From Chloroflexaceae bacterium (GTDB taxonomy: Bacteria; Chloroflexota; Chloroflexia; Chloroflexales; Chloroflexaceae), in NCBI GenBank assembly GCA_025057155.1, contig JANWYD010000004.1, forward strand, positions 186,001 through 250,000: DNA of 64,000 bases, in the 5' to 3' direction. Position numbers and translations under genes: made by a program. Positions 34,797 to 51,886 of this stretch are shown in pieces; position 1 is the first letter of the stretch, and each line of letters opens with the position of its first letter. The notes under the pieces are model-generated. The model did not search any database. It saw only the letters and a program-made list of their open reading frames with translations, and was not told where the DNA came from.

Positions 34797-35513
34797 TTAC
34801 GCCTTGCCATAGACCGGTATGTGGGCGCCGCTAACGATCCGCGCGTCGGGACCGACGAGGAAGAGGATGACCCGTGCGATGGCCTCCGGCGGCACCCAGC
34901 GACTGTGGTTGGCCTGCGGGGCGGCGCGGCGGTTGGCGGGCGTGTCAATAGTACTGGGAAGGATCGAGTTGACAGTGATGTTGTAGTCGCGCAACTCGGC
35001 GGCAAGGGCCTCGGTCAGTTGCAGCACCGCCCGTTTCGAGGCGGCATAGGCGGCCAGGTTGGCGCCGGCCTGCGTGGCGGTGCGAGTGCTCACATTGACG
35101 ATGGCCCCGCCTCCGCGGCTGATCAAATGCGGTGTCGCCGCGGCGCACGAGATCACGGCCGTCTTGAGATTGATATCGAGTTGTTGCTGCCAGAGCGCCC
35201 AATCGGTCTCGTGCACGGGCTTGCCCCCGTCGAAGCCGCCGGCTACGTTCACCAGAATATCCAGACCGCCCGCCGTTGCCGCGACCTGATCGTAGTACGC
35301 CCGCACGCCCTGTTCATCCGTCAGATCCACCTGCGCGCCGGACAGTGCAGCGTCACCGGAGCGCCCCAGGCGCTCGCGCAGGGCGTCCAGTTCACCGGCG
35401 CGGCGATAGGGAACAGCCACGGCGGCGCCGGCGTTGAGTAGCGTATCAACCACTGCGCTGCCCAGGGCGCCGGTTCCGCCCGTTACGATTGCCACCTTAC
35501 CGCTCAGACTCAT
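34797..35513 (-). CDS. SDR-family NAD(P)-dependent oxidoreductase
   Basis: 238 residues, classical short-chain dehydrogenase. ATG 35513 follows TTGGAG by 3 bp; a TTG three codons earlier is possible. Cofactor motif TGGTGALG (11-18), NVAGG (89-93), Ser142, and catalytic YAASK (Tyr156, Lys160). The C-terminal AIARVILFLVGPDARIVSGA is typical of FabG-like members. Substrate unknown. Confidence 0.92.
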   Translation of the reverse strand: MSLSGKVAIVTGGTGALGSAVVDTLLNAGAAVAVPYRRAGELDALRERLGRSGDAALSGAQVDLTDEQGVRAYYDQVAATAGGLDILVNVAGGFDGGKPVHETDWALWQQQLDINLKTAVISCAAATPHLISRGGGAIVNVSTRTATQAGANLAAYAASKRAVLQLTEALAAELRDYNITVNSILPSTIDTPANRRAAPQANHSRWVPPEAIARVILFLVGPDARIVSGAHIPVYGKA

Positions 35514-35556
35514 ATGCTCCAAGAACCTTATCTCGTTTAACGCTCATCAGCGGGTC

Positions 35557-35925
35557 TCATTGCACTACGACCACAGGGGGCACCTTGCTCCACAACCGCT
35601 CCAGGCGGTAATACTCGCGCTGGGCCGGGCTGAACACGTGAACGACGACATCGTCGTAGTCGAGCACGATCCAACCGGTTTCGGGGGTGCCTTCGCGGCG
35701 CGGGTTCAGTCCAAACTCCTGGTGCACCTTTTCGTCAATGTGGTCTACAATTGCCCGGATCTGGCGATCATTTTCCCCGGAGCAAATCACGAAATAATCG
35801 GCGATAACGCTTTGCGGGCGAATGTCGAGCAGCACAATCTCATTAGCCTGCTTGTCTTCGGCCAGCTCGACGACGCGGCGGGCAATAGTTCCGGTCTCGA
35901 TAGCAATGCTCCTTTCTAGCGCCAC
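35557..35925 (-). CDS. rsfS: ribosomal silencing factor RsfS
   Basis: RsfS binds L14 of the 50S subunit and blocks subunit joining when nutrients are scarce. Conserved: ARRVVELAEDKQANEIVLLD, ADYFVICSGENDRQIRAIVD, GWIVLDYDDVVVHVF and YYRLERLW. The start is uncertain. GTG 35925 gives 122 residues but has no Shine-Dalgarno. A good GAAAGGAG at 35918-35911 points to an ATC at 35904, seven bases on, which would match the normal family N-terminus. No ATG fits. A promoter ends just upstream (35945-35973). Confidence 0.92.
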   Translation of the reverse strand: MALERSIAIETGTIARRVVELAEDKQANEIVLLDIRPQSVIADYFVICSGENDRQIRAIVDHIDEKVHQEFGLNPRREGTPETGWIVLDYDDVVVHVFSPAQREYYRLERLWSKVPPVVVVQ

Positions 35926-35944
35926 GGTTATAGTCTGTTGATTC

Positions 35945-35973
35945 GTTATACCGGATCGTACACAGTTTGGCAA
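35945..35973 (-). promoter_or_regulatory. sigma-70-like promoter of rsfS
   Basis: On the - strand TTGCCA, 17-bp spacer, TATAAC, starting just after the PspC stop. The predicted start near 35938 leaves a leader of about 34 nt to the ATC at 35904. Confidence 0.65.
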
Positions 35974-35976
35974 GCC

Positions 35977-36495
35977 TCAGCGCTGGCGTTGCAACAGGAT
36001 CACCCCGGCGACGATCAGCAGCGCGGGAAAGAGCAAGGACGTATCTATACCGAACTGATCCAGCAGGACCAGTCCGCCAATCCCGATGAGGATCAGCCCG
36101 AGGGTGCGCCAGCGAGCGTGGCGACGTTCGGGCTGACCGGCGGATTCCGGCGGTGGCGCCGGCTGCTCGGCGCTGCCTTCCATGCCTGATGGCTGGCCAG
36201 CGAACTGTTCGAGAGACGGAACCGGCGCCTCATCGGGTGCTTCGCCACCGCCGGTGCGGGCGCGTTGCGCCGATTGTTCCATAGCACCCGAAAGCTGCCG
36301 CATGCTGGCCGGCGCCGCCCTGGGCATCACCACCCACAGGATCAGATAGGCCGGCAATCCGAGCCCGCTGGTGAGGGTTACCACTACAAAGATCAGGCGC
36401 ACGATCGCCGGGTCAATATTGAAATACTCGGCGAGACCGCCACAAACGCCCGCCACCATTGACTCGGTGGCGCTCCGCCTCAGACGGGGCTGCAT
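35977..36495 (-). CDS. PspC-domain membrane protein
   Basis: 172 residues. N-terminal PspC domain: RLRRSATESMVAGVCGGLAE, then the signature YFNIDPAIVRLIFVVV and a membrane segment to LILWVVMP. A Gly/Pro/Glu-rich linker (about 65-125) leads to two short membrane segments (LGLILIGIGGLVLLDQFG, LLFPALLIVAGVILL). PspC proteins take part in envelope-stress sensing. GTAGGAG precedes the ATG. rsfS follows. Confidence 0.9.
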   Translation of the reverse strand: MQPRLRRSATESMVAGVCGGLAEYFNIDPAIVRLIFVVVTLTSGLGLPAYLILWVVMPRAAPASMRQLSGAMEQSAQRARTGGGEAPDEAPVPSLEQFAGQPSGMEGSAEQPAPPPESAGQPERRHARWRTLGLILIGIGGLVLLDQFGIDTSLLFPALLIVAGVILLQRQR

Positions 36496-36672
36496 TGCGC
36501 GCTCCTACAGCTATTCGCAGTTGGTCGCTTCATTATCACCGTGCATACGACGGTAAGGGAACGGTTAATGTTGCAGCCCGTCCGGCAACTCGACAACCGG
36601 ATGATGGATGGAAGGGTTGTGCGGTATGGGAAGCCCGCGCGCCTTTGTTCCGTAGTTTCTCCTGGCGCGCGG

Positions 36673-38436
36673 CTATGGCAGCGGCTCCAGCGCGCCGTAC
36701 TCCAGGGGATTAACGTTCACCCATCGCGCGTCCTGCCGCACCCAGACCTGGTAATCCAGGTGGGGACCTGACGACATCCCCGTAGAGCCGATGTAACCGA
36801 TCAAATCGCCACGGCGCACTTCCTGACCATCGCTTACGGCGAAGGAGGCGAGATGGGCATAGCCGGTGCGGTAGGCGGCATTGGTTACCCAGACGTGGTT
36901 GCCTCCCGGGTGGCTGTTGGCAGTGACCGTAACCACGCCGCTATGGGTGGCGTAGACCGGACGCTCCCATGTACCCTCAGGATCGGCCCTGCCATCGCCG
37001 TCGCCATCGAGCGCCAGATCGATCGCGCCCCAGACCTCTGCGGGGGCGTGCGTACCGACGCCGTAGCCCTGCGTTACGACGGTGTTCGGCGCCCGCAGCG
37101 GGTTCCCCTGCGGGCGGGCCTCGTCGGGCAGGCCGCGCCCGCGCAGCGAGTATGCGGAAGCGTTGAACTGCGTCCGCCACTCGTCCACCAGGCGCTGTAC
37201 GACGTTGATATATCCCTGAACATCATTCTCGAAGGCCGGGGCGTATATCGGAATGATCTCGGCAACAGTACGGACGCCGCGCCCCTGAATGTACTCGACG
37301 GAGATCAGGCGATACCAGTCTTCGATGCCCTCGGCCCAGGAGCCGTAGTCGCGAAAGCGCCCGTAGCAGGTCGGGTAGCCGGCACAGATGATGTTGCCGA
37401 TGTTATGTGTCGTGCCGCCTCCTGGTTTAAGCCCGGCCCAGTTGGGGTTGGTGCCGGCGCCGCTCTCGTGAATGAAAAAGGCGACGGCGAAGGCAGGGTC
37501 GATCCCGTATTTCAGGCCGAGGTTGTACCAGTCCTTACCGGTGCCCGTGGCGGGAGAGCCATACGAGCGCAGAATGGCGTCAATCTGCTGCGGGGTAAGG
37601 CTCGGCGGCCCTTCGACGGTGTAATCGCCGATCGGGCGCGCCACGGCGCCGGTGATCGCTCCGCTGCCGTCGTAGCCGTTGAGCTGCGCCTGCACCCAGC
37701 GGCCCAGGGGCGTATCCCCCGGCCCGCCACGCAGCGCGAGGATGACCGCCAGGCTTGCCACGGCAACGAGGGCAACCCTGCCCCAATGCCCGGCGCCGGA
37801 AGTGCCGGACGGCACCAGTGGGCCCAGCCACGCGCCGATCCATTCTACGGGGTCAGGCGCGTGACCGGCTCCGGGCATTTCTCGCGCTCGTGCCAGGTGC
37901 GCGGCTCCCGCTGGCTTCCTGGCGGGCCTGGCATCCTCAGAGGGAAGGTGGCGCACATCTGTGCGGGTGCGCGCGCTCTCTGCCCGCACGACGACGCGCC
38001 GTTCGTCGTCAAACGGTCGTGCTCGATTCGCGGCGTCGCTACGCCCGGCAGGCGATGTTTCGATCGGCTCGAACGGCGGCGCGGGCCTGGCCTCCGGAGG
38101 CGGCGCCGGGCGTCTGTATTCCGCCCGTGGCCTGCCATCGGGCGCCGGCGAATCCTCGCTATCGGCGCGCCGCGGAACGCGCGCAGAGGTGTAGCGCCCG
38201 TCGCGGGGCGGCCCTACGGATCGCTCTCCCTTCAGATCGGGGTCGCTGACGCGCCGGTCCGGACGCTCGAGACGGGTTTCGGCGAAGGTGGGAAAGGCGG
38301 CTTCATCTTCGGCGAACCAGTCGCTGAGCGGCTGCGGAGGCAGTTTCCTGGGGACGACATCCTTGCTCTCCAGAGCGAGACGTAGCTTACGCCGCTGGCG
38401 ATCCACCGGACGATCCTGGTCGTCGGAAGCGCTCAC
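36673..38436 (-). CDS. membrane-anchored glucosaminidase with degenerate M23 domain
   Basis: 587 residues. A charged, Pro/Arg-rich cytoplasmic part (about 1-200) leads to one membrane segment (RVALVAVASLAVILAL, about 218-235). Next comes an outside lysozyme/glucosaminidase-like domain (about 265-430: LGLKYGIDPAFAVAFFIHES, then HNIGNIICAGYPTCYGRFRD; Glu of FIHESG is the likely catalyst). Last is an M23/LytM domain (about 455-587). In that domain the zinc motif H-x3-D reads WGAID and the H-x-H reads HLD, so two of three zinc ligands are lost while the YAH and GPH histidines stay. An extra DGDGDGRAD loop looks like a calcium site. GTG start overlaps the upstream stop. The operon promoter carries a LexA-type box. 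Confidence 0.85.
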   Translation of the reverse strand: MSASDDQDRPVDRQRRKLRLALESKDVVPRKLPPQPLSDWFAEDEAAFPTFAETRLERPDRRVSDPDLKGERSVGPPRDGRYTSARVPRRADSEDSPAPDGRPRAEYRRPAPPPEARPAPPFEPIETSPAGRSDAANRARPFDDERRVVVRAESARTRTDVRHLPSEDARPARKPAGAAHLARAREMPGAGHAPDPVEWIGAWLGPLVPSGTSGAGHWGRVALVAVASLAVILALRGGPGDTPLGRWVQAQLNGYDGSGAITGAVARPIGDYTVEGPPSLTPQQIDAILRSYGSPATGTGKDWYNLGLKYGIDPAFAVAFFIHESGAGTNPNWAGLKPGGGTTHNIGNIICAGYPTCYGRFRDYGSWAEGIEDWYRLISVEYIQGRGVRTVAEIIPIYAPAFENDVQGYINVVQRLVDEWRTQFNASAYSLRGRGLPDEARPQGNPLRAPNTVVTQGYGVGTHAPAEVWGAIDLALDGDGDGRADPEGTWERPVYATHSGVVTVTANSHPGGNHVWVTNAAYRTGYAHLASFAVSDGQEVRRGDLIGYIGSTGMSSGPHLDYQVWVRQDARWVNVNPLEYGALEPLP

Positions 38437-38948
38437 GGAAGTTGCTCCTGCGCCAGCAGCGCCTGCTCCTCCGCCGTGGGCAGACGGAATGCGCCCTCGC
38501 GATTAAGGTAGACGACCCGTTCGTTGCTGACCGTGAGGACCAGATCGTTCAGGCCGTCACCGTCCATGTCCAGAAGAGATAATACCACAGGCTCAAGATC
38601 CTGGCGCGAGCCGAACAGGTACGGACCCGGTAGACTACGGGCCTGCTGCGGATCGCTCCCCGGCAGTTCAAGTACGACAACCTGCCGGTCCAGGTTCATG
38701 GCCACAATGTGCGTCGGGCGACCGGCGCCCTCCGCGCCGTGGCCGACGTACCCCGTCACGTGGGCTGTGCGGGGCCGGCCATAACGCAGATCGTCAAGGG
38801 CGATTCGCGCGCGCTCCACTACCGCGCCCACCAGCACGTGGACGGCCAGCGCCGCAAGCAGGAACGTTAAAACGTAGGCCACGCCCAGTCCCGGACGCCG
38901 GGGCGCCGCGGGCAACCTTCCCGCCAATTCTCTGCTCGTCACTGCCAT
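38433..38948 (-). CDS. membrane-anchored FG-GAP/VCBS-like protein
   Basis: 171 residues, first gene of the operon with the peptidoglycan hydrolase (GTGA overlap). It has an ideal ribosome site, AAGGAGGTGACGT before the ATG. One membrane segment (YVLTFLLAALAVHVLVGAVV, about 25-44) is followed by an outside beta domain with a repeat-like calcium motif LLDMDGDGLNDLVLTV (about 127-142). Not recognised beyond that; it may help place or restrain the downstream hydrolase. Confidence 0.75.
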   Translation of the reverse strand: MAVTSRELAGRLPAAPRRPGLGVAYVLTFLLAALAVHVLVGAVVERARIALDDLRYGRPRTAHVTGYVGHGAEGAGRPTHIVAMNLDRQVVVLELPGSDPQQARSLPGPYLFGSRQDLEPVVLSLLDMDGDGLNDLVLTVSNERVVYLNREGAFRLPTAEEQALLAQEQLP

Positions 38949-39108
38949 ACGTCACCTCCTTTCCTCGGGGTTTGAGCAGACCGCGCCCTCCTGGCCGGTT
39001 GATCCCGTTGCCGCCCAACAGCGCCTCACAGCGGCCCGGAGTGAACGAAAAGCCGGCTTAAGGGAGAACCGTGCTTTCTCCATGCCTTGCTTTCAAGAGG
39101 GCTGTTTT

Positions 39109-39138
39109 ATTATAGAACTTTTGTTCTACTCCTGTCAA
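39109..39138 (-). promoter_or_regulatory. consensus sigma-70 promoter of the hydrolase operon
   Basis: On the - strand TTGACA (39138-39133), 18-bp spacer, TATAAT (39114-39109): both hexamers are perfect. The spacer holds GAACAAAAGTTC, the reverse-strand reading of the GAAC-N4-GTTC box, so repressor binding would block polymerase. The leader to ATG 38948 is about 150 nt. Confidence 0.9.
39113..39128. promoter_or_regulatory. LexA-type (Cheo) box TAGAAC-TTTT-GTTCTA
   Basis: A perfect GAAC-N4-GTTC core with two more paired bases on each side, lying between -35 and -10 of a consensus promoter. This is the SOS box of Gram-positive bacteria (established). Its use in this organism is inferred and supported by the same core at the ssb promoter. 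Confidence 0.75.
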
Positions 39139-39204
39139 TCCGGTACGGCGTTGAGCGTCTGAGACGAGCCCCGTGCGCGACGGACGTTTCCAACAACGTC
39201 GCTA

Positions 39205-40395
39205 TCACGCCCGGTCAAGCACGGCGAGCGTTTCTACATGAGGGGTGTGGGGGAACATATCGTAACCGCGCAGGAAACGCGCGGCGTAAACGGGAGCGAG
39301 CATGCGCAGATCTTCGATCTGAGAGAGCGGATTGCACGAGACGTAGACAATGCGCCGCGGCCCGATCCGCAGCACTTCGCGGCAGACATCGGGACCCAGA
39401 CCGGTGCGAGGCGGGTCGAGCACCATTACGTCGAAGGCGCCCGGCCCCTGAGCGCGCAGATACGCCGCTACGTCAGCGGCGATGATCTGGACGTTGGCGA
39501 CGCCGTTCGACGCGGCATTTTCACGCGCCAGGGTCGCGCTCTCCTCTATCGCTTCTACGCAGACCACGCTGGCCGCGCGCGGAGCCAGGGTCAGCGCGAT
39601 GAGGCCCACGCCGCCGTACAGGTCGGCTACGGCGCGCGACCCGGGCTCGACCGCGGCGCTCACGTCGTCCAGAAGGCGCTCCAGGAGATGCACATTGTTC
39701 TGGAAGAAGGTATTGGGGCCTATTGCCAGGCGCAGGCGCCCGACGCGCATGCTCAGCGTCGCGGCGCCCCAGTGGCGCACCGCCACGCCGAAGGAGAGGT
39801 CCGTCAGGCTGTCGTTACGCAGCCAGTGAAAGCCGACCACACCGGGCTGCTCCAGCGCCGCGGCGGCCAGGCGCTCCATGGCTTCTTCCGGCTCGCCGGC
39901 AGCGGTAACCGTCGCCAGCAGCAGTTCATTATCGGGGCTGCGGCGCACGACGATGTAGCGCAAAAAGCCCTCGTGACGCCGCACGTCGTAGTCGGGCAGA
40001 TCGAGGGCGCGAGCCTTGGCCCACACCGCGCGGGCCGCCGCGAAAGCCACAGGAGGAATGAGATGGCACTCCTCCAGATCCACCACCTGGCTGAAGCGTC
40101 CCCGCGCCCGCAACCCGAAGCGCCCCCTGGTGGTCACATAGTCCATGCGCGTGCGATAACCGAAGGGGTCAGGCGAAGGGACCAGCTCCAGGTCCCCGGC
40201 TGCGGTCATCGTCGGCGCGCCGACTTCCGTGAAGACGCGCCCGAGCGCAGTCCGTTTGGCAGCGATCTGGGCCGAGTAGGCCCGGTCCTGAAATGCGCAG
40301 CCGCCGCATTCGACGGCATGCCGGCAACGGGGCAGGACCGCCTCCCCGGACCGGGCCAGGTCGGTCACCAGGCGCCGGAACTCTTTCGCGCGCAT
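39205..40395 (-). CDS. class I SAM-dependent RNA (uracil-C5) methyltransferase, RlmD/TrmA family
   Basis: 396 residues from ATG 40395 (GGAG 8 bp upstream). It carries the iron-sulfur Cys set CRHAVECGGCAFQD (about 25-38) with a later Cys in EECHLIPP, the SAM-binding core VADLYGGVGLIALTLAPRAA, DVMVLDPPRTGLGPDV and the catalytic-Cys motif IVYVSCNPLSQIEDL. No TRAM domain precedes it. It should methylate C5 of a uridine in rRNA or tRNA; which one cannot be told. Confidence 0.9.
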   Translation of the reverse strand: MRAKEFRRLVTDLARSGEAVLPRCRHAVECGGCAFQDRAYSAQIAAKRTALGRVFTEVGAPTMTAAGDLELVPSPDPFGYRTRMDYVTTRGRFGLRARGRFSQVVDLEECHLIPPVAFAAARAVWAKARALDLPDYDVRRHEGFLRYIVVRRSPDNELLLATVTAAGEPEEAMERLAAAALEQPGVVGFHWLRNDSLTDLSFGVAVRHWGAATLSMRVGRLRLAIGPNTFFQNNVHLLERLLDDVSAAVEPGSRAVADLYGGVGLIALTLAPRAASVVCVEAIEESATLARENAASNGVANVQIIAADVAAYLRAQGPGAFDVMVLDPPRTGLGPDVCREVLRIGPRRIVYVSCNPLSQIEDLRMLAPVYAARFLRGYDMFPHTPHVETLAVLDRA

Positions 40396-51263: not shown

Positions 51264-51809
51264 TCAAAATGGAATATCGTCGTCGTTCTCGATCGGCTGG
51301 GGCTGATTGCGGGCAGCCGGCCGCGCTGCAGGACGCGTGGAGGCGCCTGAGGGGCGCTCAACTGTGTTGCCGCCGGGGGCAGCAGCGGGAGCGCGGCGTG
51401 AGGGGGCGGGCGGAGGAGCGTCCTCTTCCGGTTCCTCGACCTGGAGCAGCGCCTCGGGCGCAGGGCCGCGTTCACCACGGCTGGAGAGGATGATCATATC
51501 CTGGGCCACCACCTCGGTGATGTAGCGATCCTGTCCGTCCCGGTCGGTCCACTTGCGGGTTTGCAGCCGGCCCTCGACGTAGACGCGCGTACCCTTGGTG
51601 AGATAGGTGTTGCAGATCTCGCCGAGTTTATCCCAGGCGACGATGCGGAACCACTCTGTATCTTCGCGGGTGCCGCCGTCGCGATCCTTCCAGGTGCGAT
51701 TACTGGCGACGCGGAACGTTGTGACCGCGCTGCCCTGCGCCGTGTAGCGCATCTCCGGGTCGGCTCCGAGATGCCCGGTGAGCTGTACTTTGTTCAGATC
51801 CTTCGCCAT
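51264..51809 (-). CDS. ssb: single-stranded DNA-binding protein
   Basis: SSB coats single-stranded DNA in replication and repair. 181 residues from ATG 51809 (GAGGAGG 9 bp upstream). OB fold: LNKVQLTGHLGADPEMRYTA, TTFRVASNRTWKDRDGG, TEWFRIVAWDKLGEICNTYL, KGTRVYVEGRLQTRKW, ITEVVAQDMIIL. A Pro/Ala-rich linker (about 115-170) ends in the acidic tip DDDIPF, which recruits partner proteins. Its promoter carries a LexA-type box over the start point, fitting SOS control as in other bacteria. Confidence 0.96.
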   Translation of the reverse strand: MAKDLNKVQLTGHLGADPEMRYTAQGSAVTTFRVASNRTWKDRDGGTREDTEWFRIVAWDKLGEICNTYLTKGTRVYVEGRLQTRKWTDRDGQDRYITEVVAQDMIILSSRGERGPAPEALLQVEEPEEDAPPPAPSRRAPAAAPGGNTVERPSGASTRPAARPAARNQPQPIENDDDIPF

Positions 51810-51870
51810 GGACGACCTCCTCGTAACACGTAGACACTCGCCCCGACACGTACCGAGCGACCGAGTGAAT

Positions 51871-51884
51871 CGAACTAGTGTTCG
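51871..51884. promoter_or_regulatory. LexA-type (Cheo) box CGAAC-TAGT-GTTCG
   Basis: A perfect CGAAC-N4-GTTCG, the consensus SOS box of Gram-positive bacteria, located from about +1 back to the -10 of the ssb promoter. ssb is a known SOS gene in other bacteria. Confidence 0.8.
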
Positions 51885-51886
51885 CA

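Follow-up and report, generated by a model that had tools for sequence, protein, structure and literature searches.

In a Chloroflexaceae bacterium, an operon for two membrane proteins, one FG-GAP-like and the other an anchored glucosaminidase-like/M23 protein, is preceded by a predicted LexA operator, which lies within the spacer of a consensus promoter. Sequence comparison makes it very probable that this operator is a LexA target and that a damage-fired promoter here drives membrane and cell-wall proteins. The sequences themselves show the operator, its likeness to the promoter elements of lexA and recA, its position on the core promoter and its conservation across the order.

A consensus promoter carries a palindromic operator in its spacer

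The window, meaning the whole 64,000-nucleotide stretch of DNA that was analyzed, belongs to a genome of 5.13 Mb in 189 contigs; its relevant features are listed in Table 1. The first-pass annotation had described a minus-strand TTGACA-18-TATAAT promoter with a palindrome in its spacer, and an operon for membrane-anchored FG-GAP-like and glucosaminidase/M23 proteins. The promoter was confirmed at 39138..39109, where ATTGACAGGAGTAGAACAAAAGTTCTATAATAAAAC matches the consensus at 12/12 positions, and the open reading frames are as described, with FG-GAP and glucosaminidase family matches that fall below their cut-offs. No other promoter-like match occurs within 35500-39400, where 0.6 would be expected. 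The motif GAACAAAAGTTC (39115-39126) lies inside the perfect palindrome, and the next best site of the window scored 11.6 bits with the lexA+recA matrix (Table 1). A terminator-like stem at 39071..39054 separates the promoter from the first gene of the operon; such stems occur at chance level in the stretch (2 found, 2.3 expected).

Table 1. Features of the window that bear on the predicted LexA regulation
Feature	Position	Strand	Remarks
Predicted LexA operator, perfect 16-bp palindrome TAGAACAAAAGTTCTA	39113..39128	-	21.4 bits, lexA+recA matrix
Consensus promoter TTGACA-18-TATAAT, operator within spacer	39109..39138	-	last bases of the operator extend into the -10 element
FG-GAP-like bitopic membrane protein P0003, 171 aa	38433..38948	-	hydrophobic stretch ~18-47; start MAVTSRE
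Membrane-anchored glucosaminidase-like/M23 protein P0002, 587 aa	36673..38436	-	overlaps the FG-GAP-like ORF by 4 nt
Second LexA-type box GCGAACACTAGTTCGA	51870..51885	-	just 3' of the -10 element of the ssb promoter
ssb, single-stranded-DNA-binding protein	51264..51809	-	SSB PF00436; start codon by eye

A palindrome that arose by chance in a strong constitutive promoter would find its support in the pattern GAACNNNNGTTC, which is expected 0.58 times per window and was found twice. This pattern alone is weak evidence, because 13 of 100 shuffles also reached at least two sites. Genome-wide, GAAC-N4-GTTC is over-represented, with 89 occurrences against 26 for the reversed control.

The operator resembles elements at lexA, recA and other SOS promoters

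The genome search showed that one LexA and one S24-peptidase protein are encoded. This LexA aligns over its full length with solved LexA repressors and carries the stretches ITAGSP, GQSM and TLKKF (read by eye), which we take to hold the cleavage site and the Ser/Lys positions. In the lexA promoter, TTGACG-18-TATACT is followed by TGCTACAAAAGTTCTA. The lexA box matches the window site at 13/16 positions and is one-sided, with TGCTAC where TAGAAC would stand. Exact matches to ACAAAAGTTCTA occur at only three places in the genome, namely the window site, the lexA promoter and C10:17610, and allowing one mismatch adds a fourth at C4:157257, before a PGA_cap/CapA gene. Four matches are an unremarkable number, because the reversed control gives five; the notable part is their location.

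Elements of the GNAC-N4-GTGC type were read by eye upstream of recA in 22/25 loci (L133, L151 and L154 lack one). The genome's own recA has two, 19 bp apart, and that of genome G027 reads TCGAACTTTTGTTCTA. At imuA-like loci of three genomes of the genus we found AAGAACGTTTGTGCGG or similar; the genome's own imuA-like protein scored 25.9 bits against the ImuA model, under the cut-off of 150 bits. The ssb promoter, TTGACG-17-TATAGT-TGCGAACACTAGTTCGA, holds the only other GAAC-N4-GTTC of the window.

GAAC-N4-GTTC is the LexA (Cheo) box of Gram-positive bacteria, and the promoters of lexA, recA, imuA-like genes and ssb here bear a palindrome of this type, as in the SOS regulons of those bacteria. 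The elements differ from the Gram-positive box in that the palindrome is extended to TAGAAC...GTTCTA, the lexA box is one-sided and recA mostly has GNAC...GTGC. The difference between the left half of lexA's own element and the operon palindrome could be taken to mean that the box belongs to another regulator, one that also controls lexA. We regard this as very unlikely, given the same kind of box at recA, imuA-like genes and ssb, the correspondence with the known Gram-positive LexA box, and a search of the S24 family that returned only one such repressor. Control by a second S24 repressor was rejected on that single match.

The third exact match, C10:17610, precedes a small protein, P0004 (L024 1172-1456, G000:C10:17281-17565), of a family of ~95 aa with matches in 26/41 genomes, own included, the weakest of them doubtful. 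Upstream regions of this family (L221-L246) have a site at p<0.05 in 21/26 cases, mostly as TTGACA-box-TATACT, a count that includes the two borderline cases L225 and L226, of which L226 shows no convincing box. The family has no Pfam, NCBIfam or PHROGs match and is a candidate SOS gene that may extend the regulon.

LexA-type boxes were also seen before other genes. The box TAGCACAAAAGTTCTG (L026 1497-1512, G000:C4:157253) precedes a PGA_cap/CapA family gene, a strong 19.2-bit box (L165 1501-1516, G000:C26:8182) precedes a 59-aa ORF, and a one-mismatch box (L021 1500-1515, G000:C8:92247) lies ~12 nt before a gene for a Band_7-like membrane protein. In another genome, a perfect palindrome (L104 1501-1516, G032:C6) stands just 5' of a gene that by eye looks like mraZ, where a division cluster may begin.

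The box is conserved across the order

The FG-GAP-like protein is found in 39/41 genomes, the present one among them, mostly with two copies each. We designated as set A the copy followed by a match to the 587-aa protein, and as set B the copy without that neighbor. Upstream regions were scored with a symmetrised matrix built from 28 lexA sites (30 loci) and 21 recA sites (25 loci); 2/30 lexA loci and 3/25 recA loci without a site, and one identical recA copy, were left out. With 200 first-order Markov shuffles as background, set A had a site at p<0.05 in 31/32 upstream regions (all but L065) and at p<=0.01 in 29/32; the set includes L100, L103 and L106, where the M23-operon neighbor was assumed. 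Set B gave 17/20 at p<0.05. A box specific to the M23 operon was rejected on this count, as the FG-GAP-like paralogue without an M23 neighbor carries boxes as well. In the genome itself, this paralogue (L111 1532-2056, G000:C3:230331) has two tandem boxes after its -10 element.

The held-out set comprised 40 upstream regions of 36 genomes that had no part in the training (two regions came from each of four genomes; L191 had been seen earlier as L091), scored against 100 shuffles. A site at p<0.05 was present in 32/40 overall. Operons in the order had the box in 19/21 cases (L183 barely; L190 and L197 lacked it) and FG-GAP-like genes without an M23 neighbor in 10/10, as against only 3/9 outside the order. 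Control tiles reached 12 bits in 0/189 cases in the window and 3/468 in relatives.

The training sites of the matrix had been picked by their likeness to the box, and an unseeded 12-mer count, with one sequence per genus, served as a check on lexA and FG-operon promoters. The commonest 12-mers of lexA promoters were ACATACGTTCTA (20/21) and ACATAAGTTCTA (19/21), and GAACAAATGTTC was among the commonest of FG-operon promoters (19/20). Identity between genera was 0.74 over the box and 0.25 and 0.26 over its flanks (20 genera, one sequence each), a comparison that favors the box since the best box of each sequence served as its anchor. These results decide against a chance palindrome, which was rejected on the held-out conservation, on the footprint of conservation across 20 genera with unlike flanks, and on the unseeded count; we give it almost no weight.

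Perfect palindromes number 15 in the 41 genomes against 30 for the reversed control, so that the evidence lies in their place and not in their number: seven stand before an FG-family gene and one before a gene of the P0004 family. Likewise, the 16-mer with up to three mismatches has 24 matches in the genome itself and the control 39.

Boxes of at least 12 bits are concentrated on core promoters. In set A, 28/30 lie within the spacer between -35 and -10 or on or just after the -10 element, against a null of 0.106, and the same holds for 19/20 boxes of held-out operons (two operons being outside the order) against the same null. For FG-GAP-like genes without an M23 neighbor, only 7/11 boxes sit on the core promoter, and 9/10 among held-out ones. 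This position is kept in set A although the distance from box to start codon varies from ~65 to 290 bp. Taken together, the elements at lexA, recA and other SOS promoters and the alignment of the promoter in relatives strongly support, at the level of sequence, the LexA control that the first-pass annotation had proposed for this box.

Among 150 sampled genomes of the class, the FG-GAP-like protein occurs in 77, of which 70 belong to the order and seven lie outside; it is missing from at least four genomes of the order among the genomes listed. Eight of nine named records with an FG-GAP-like relative are Chloroflexi, Chloroflexales, Chloroflexaceae or Oscillochloris, and the ninth, a short and weak match, is deltaproteobacterial.

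The operon encodes predicted single-span proteins and a degenerate M23 domain

P0003 and P0002 have one hydrophobic stretch apiece and are putative single-span proteins. In P0003 the stretch is followed by ~120 residues with the motif DMDGDG, which is not invariant among relatives; its match to Pfam FG-GAP_3 scored 20.8 bits, under the curated cut-off of 26.9. P0002 consists of an N-terminal region of ~210 residues, a hydrophobic stretch at ~215-240, a glucosaminidase-like domain at 303-414 and an M23 domain. The match to Pfam Glucosaminidase reached 26.1 bits (cut-off 30.2) and that to Pfam M23 70.1 bits (cut-off 28.7). The glucosaminidase-like domain, a sub-cut-off match to its family, GH73, keeps an ES motif in 39/39 sequences that have the domain, window included, and its Glu is presumably catalytic.

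M23 peptidases bind zinc through HxxxD and HxH motifs. The first zinc-ligand His is absent here, with WGxxD in place of HxxxD in the window and in 28/28 M23 sequences of relatives, which are those found among 48 loci (L091 and L191 seem to be the same contig). The second motif reads HxD in the window and 21/28 relatives, and HxH in 7/28. Because the first ligand is lost, the M23 domain of P0002 is probably not a working peptidase, and an active M23 peptidase as originally written was rejected. Matches of P0002 to the NlpD, ActS and DipM models were below cut-off, as were those to the working peptidases MepM and ShyA.

The glucosaminidase-like and M23 domains lie on separate ORFs in 14/16 rows of relatives that were read; they are fused in two, both from one genome of the same genus. 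Outside the order (nine upstream regions) and at L197, the stretch examined contained the glucosaminidase-like domain and no M23 match. No Pfam LysM match was found at E <= 0.001 for P0002 and P0003, or at E <= 0.01 for P0003. The PHROGs search matched P0002, mainly on its M23 part, and neither P0003 nor P0004; PADLOC matched none of P0002, P0003 and P0004. Structure models were unusable (mean pLDDT 59.0 and 32.4). After the operon, on the same strand, lies a gene for a PspC/LiaF-like membrane protein (window 35977-36495), and no terminator-like site was found between the two.

The composition of P0002 bears on whether the operon could be a LexA-controlled module for lysis or filament breakage, in which the hydrolase, after heavy damage, would cut through wall or septa, so that the cell dies or pieces of the filament are freed. 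The conserved Glu of the glucosaminidase-like domain, the membrane protein encoded beside it and the near-consensus promoter are consistent with such a module. Explosive cell lysis of P. aeruginosa is reportedly linked to SOS and an endolysin. The available part of a description of explosive lysis in that species (PMC4834629) was counted in favor of the module. Within the operon, however, no holin was found, the hydrolase, with its membrane stretch and extended N-terminal region, does not look like a released enzyme, and its M23 domain lacks the first zinc ligand. A lysis or breakage role accords with the same LexA evidence; we consider it unlikely.

A proposed SOS response of the cell wall

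Repression, induction, topology and the cellular role are inferred as follows. In undamaged cells, LexA would block RNA polymerase at the spacer operator of a strong promoter. Upon DNA damage, activated RecA would trigger self-cleavage of LexA, and with LexA gone the promoter would fire at near-consensus strength. Its products would be the FG-GAP-like protein, which is predicted to be bitopic, and the membrane-anchored protein with its glucosaminidase-like and degenerate M23 domains. Both may act on peptidoglycan, or bind to it, on the outer side of the membrane; the M23 domain, which is probably not catalytic, would serve for wall binding or as an activator. As the operon promoter bears a LexA operator, the cell wall is probably altered upon DNA damage in Chloroflexi of this order.

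EnvC, NlpD, ActS and DipM form a class of degenerate LytM/M23 activators. The M23 match of the operon resembles them in its lost zinc ligand and differs from them in its LexA-type control and in being fused or adjacent to a glucosaminidase-like domain. We know of no other degenerate M23 domain under SOS control. That degenerate M23 proteins elsewhere activate wall enzymes speaks for SOS-controlled wall maintenance, in which the proteins would preserve or mend the wall while cells elongate in response to damage, without a checkpoint role, although the matches to NlpD, ActS and DipM are below cut-off. Wall maintenance would share all of the LexA evidence, and nothing stands directly against it; the SOS set of the order would then be without a known division blocker. 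We hold it to be improbable, to about the same degree as lysis.

The role we favor, with a little less than even confidence, is that septal wall would be held back or remodelled during DNA repair. The analogues are YneA, ChiZ, DivS and SosA, damage-controlled single-span membrane proteins whose outer part is at the wall, according to the available parts of PMC6851548 and PMC3989709. The operon has a LexA-type box and one hydrophobic stretch per protein, whose C-terminal part may lie outside the membrane, and by this analogy a division checkpoint is plausible, tempered by the lost zinc ligand of the M23 domain and a glucosaminidase match under its cut-off. The operon differs from YneA and ChiZ in that no LysM was found in its proteins, a domain that DivS and SosA lack too, and from all four in its protein families, in not adjoining lexA and in its glucosaminidase-like and degenerate M23 domains; inhibition would here be our inference. 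SOS-controlled, membrane-anchored wall proteins are known from such systems, and the operon would add a further variant. A more specific proposal, which we put forward tentatively, is an SOS wall checkpoint of Chloroflexota without known division inhibitors, in which septa of multicellular filaments would be stalled or reshaped upon DNA damage by a tethered glucosaminidase and an M23 domain without zinc, acting jointly with two bitopic FG-GAP-like proteins under LexA control.

In the limited literature searched, no published account of either a LexA motif or an SOS regulon was found for Chloroflexi, and the available portions of PMC3323433 and PMC8565304 give neither. RegPrecise, as far as its description was available, has a Chloroflexi regulog collection and names LexA among the regulators held for >25 taxonomic groups (PMC3840689), so a LexA motif for Chloroflexi may be recorded there already.

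Members of the order are filamentous, partly phototrophic bacteria. The present analysis gives this order of filamentous bacteria a sequence-defined LexA operator with a partial SOS regulon, and ties a conserved wall operon to DNA damage. How filaments stop or reshape division after damage thereby becomes directly testable.
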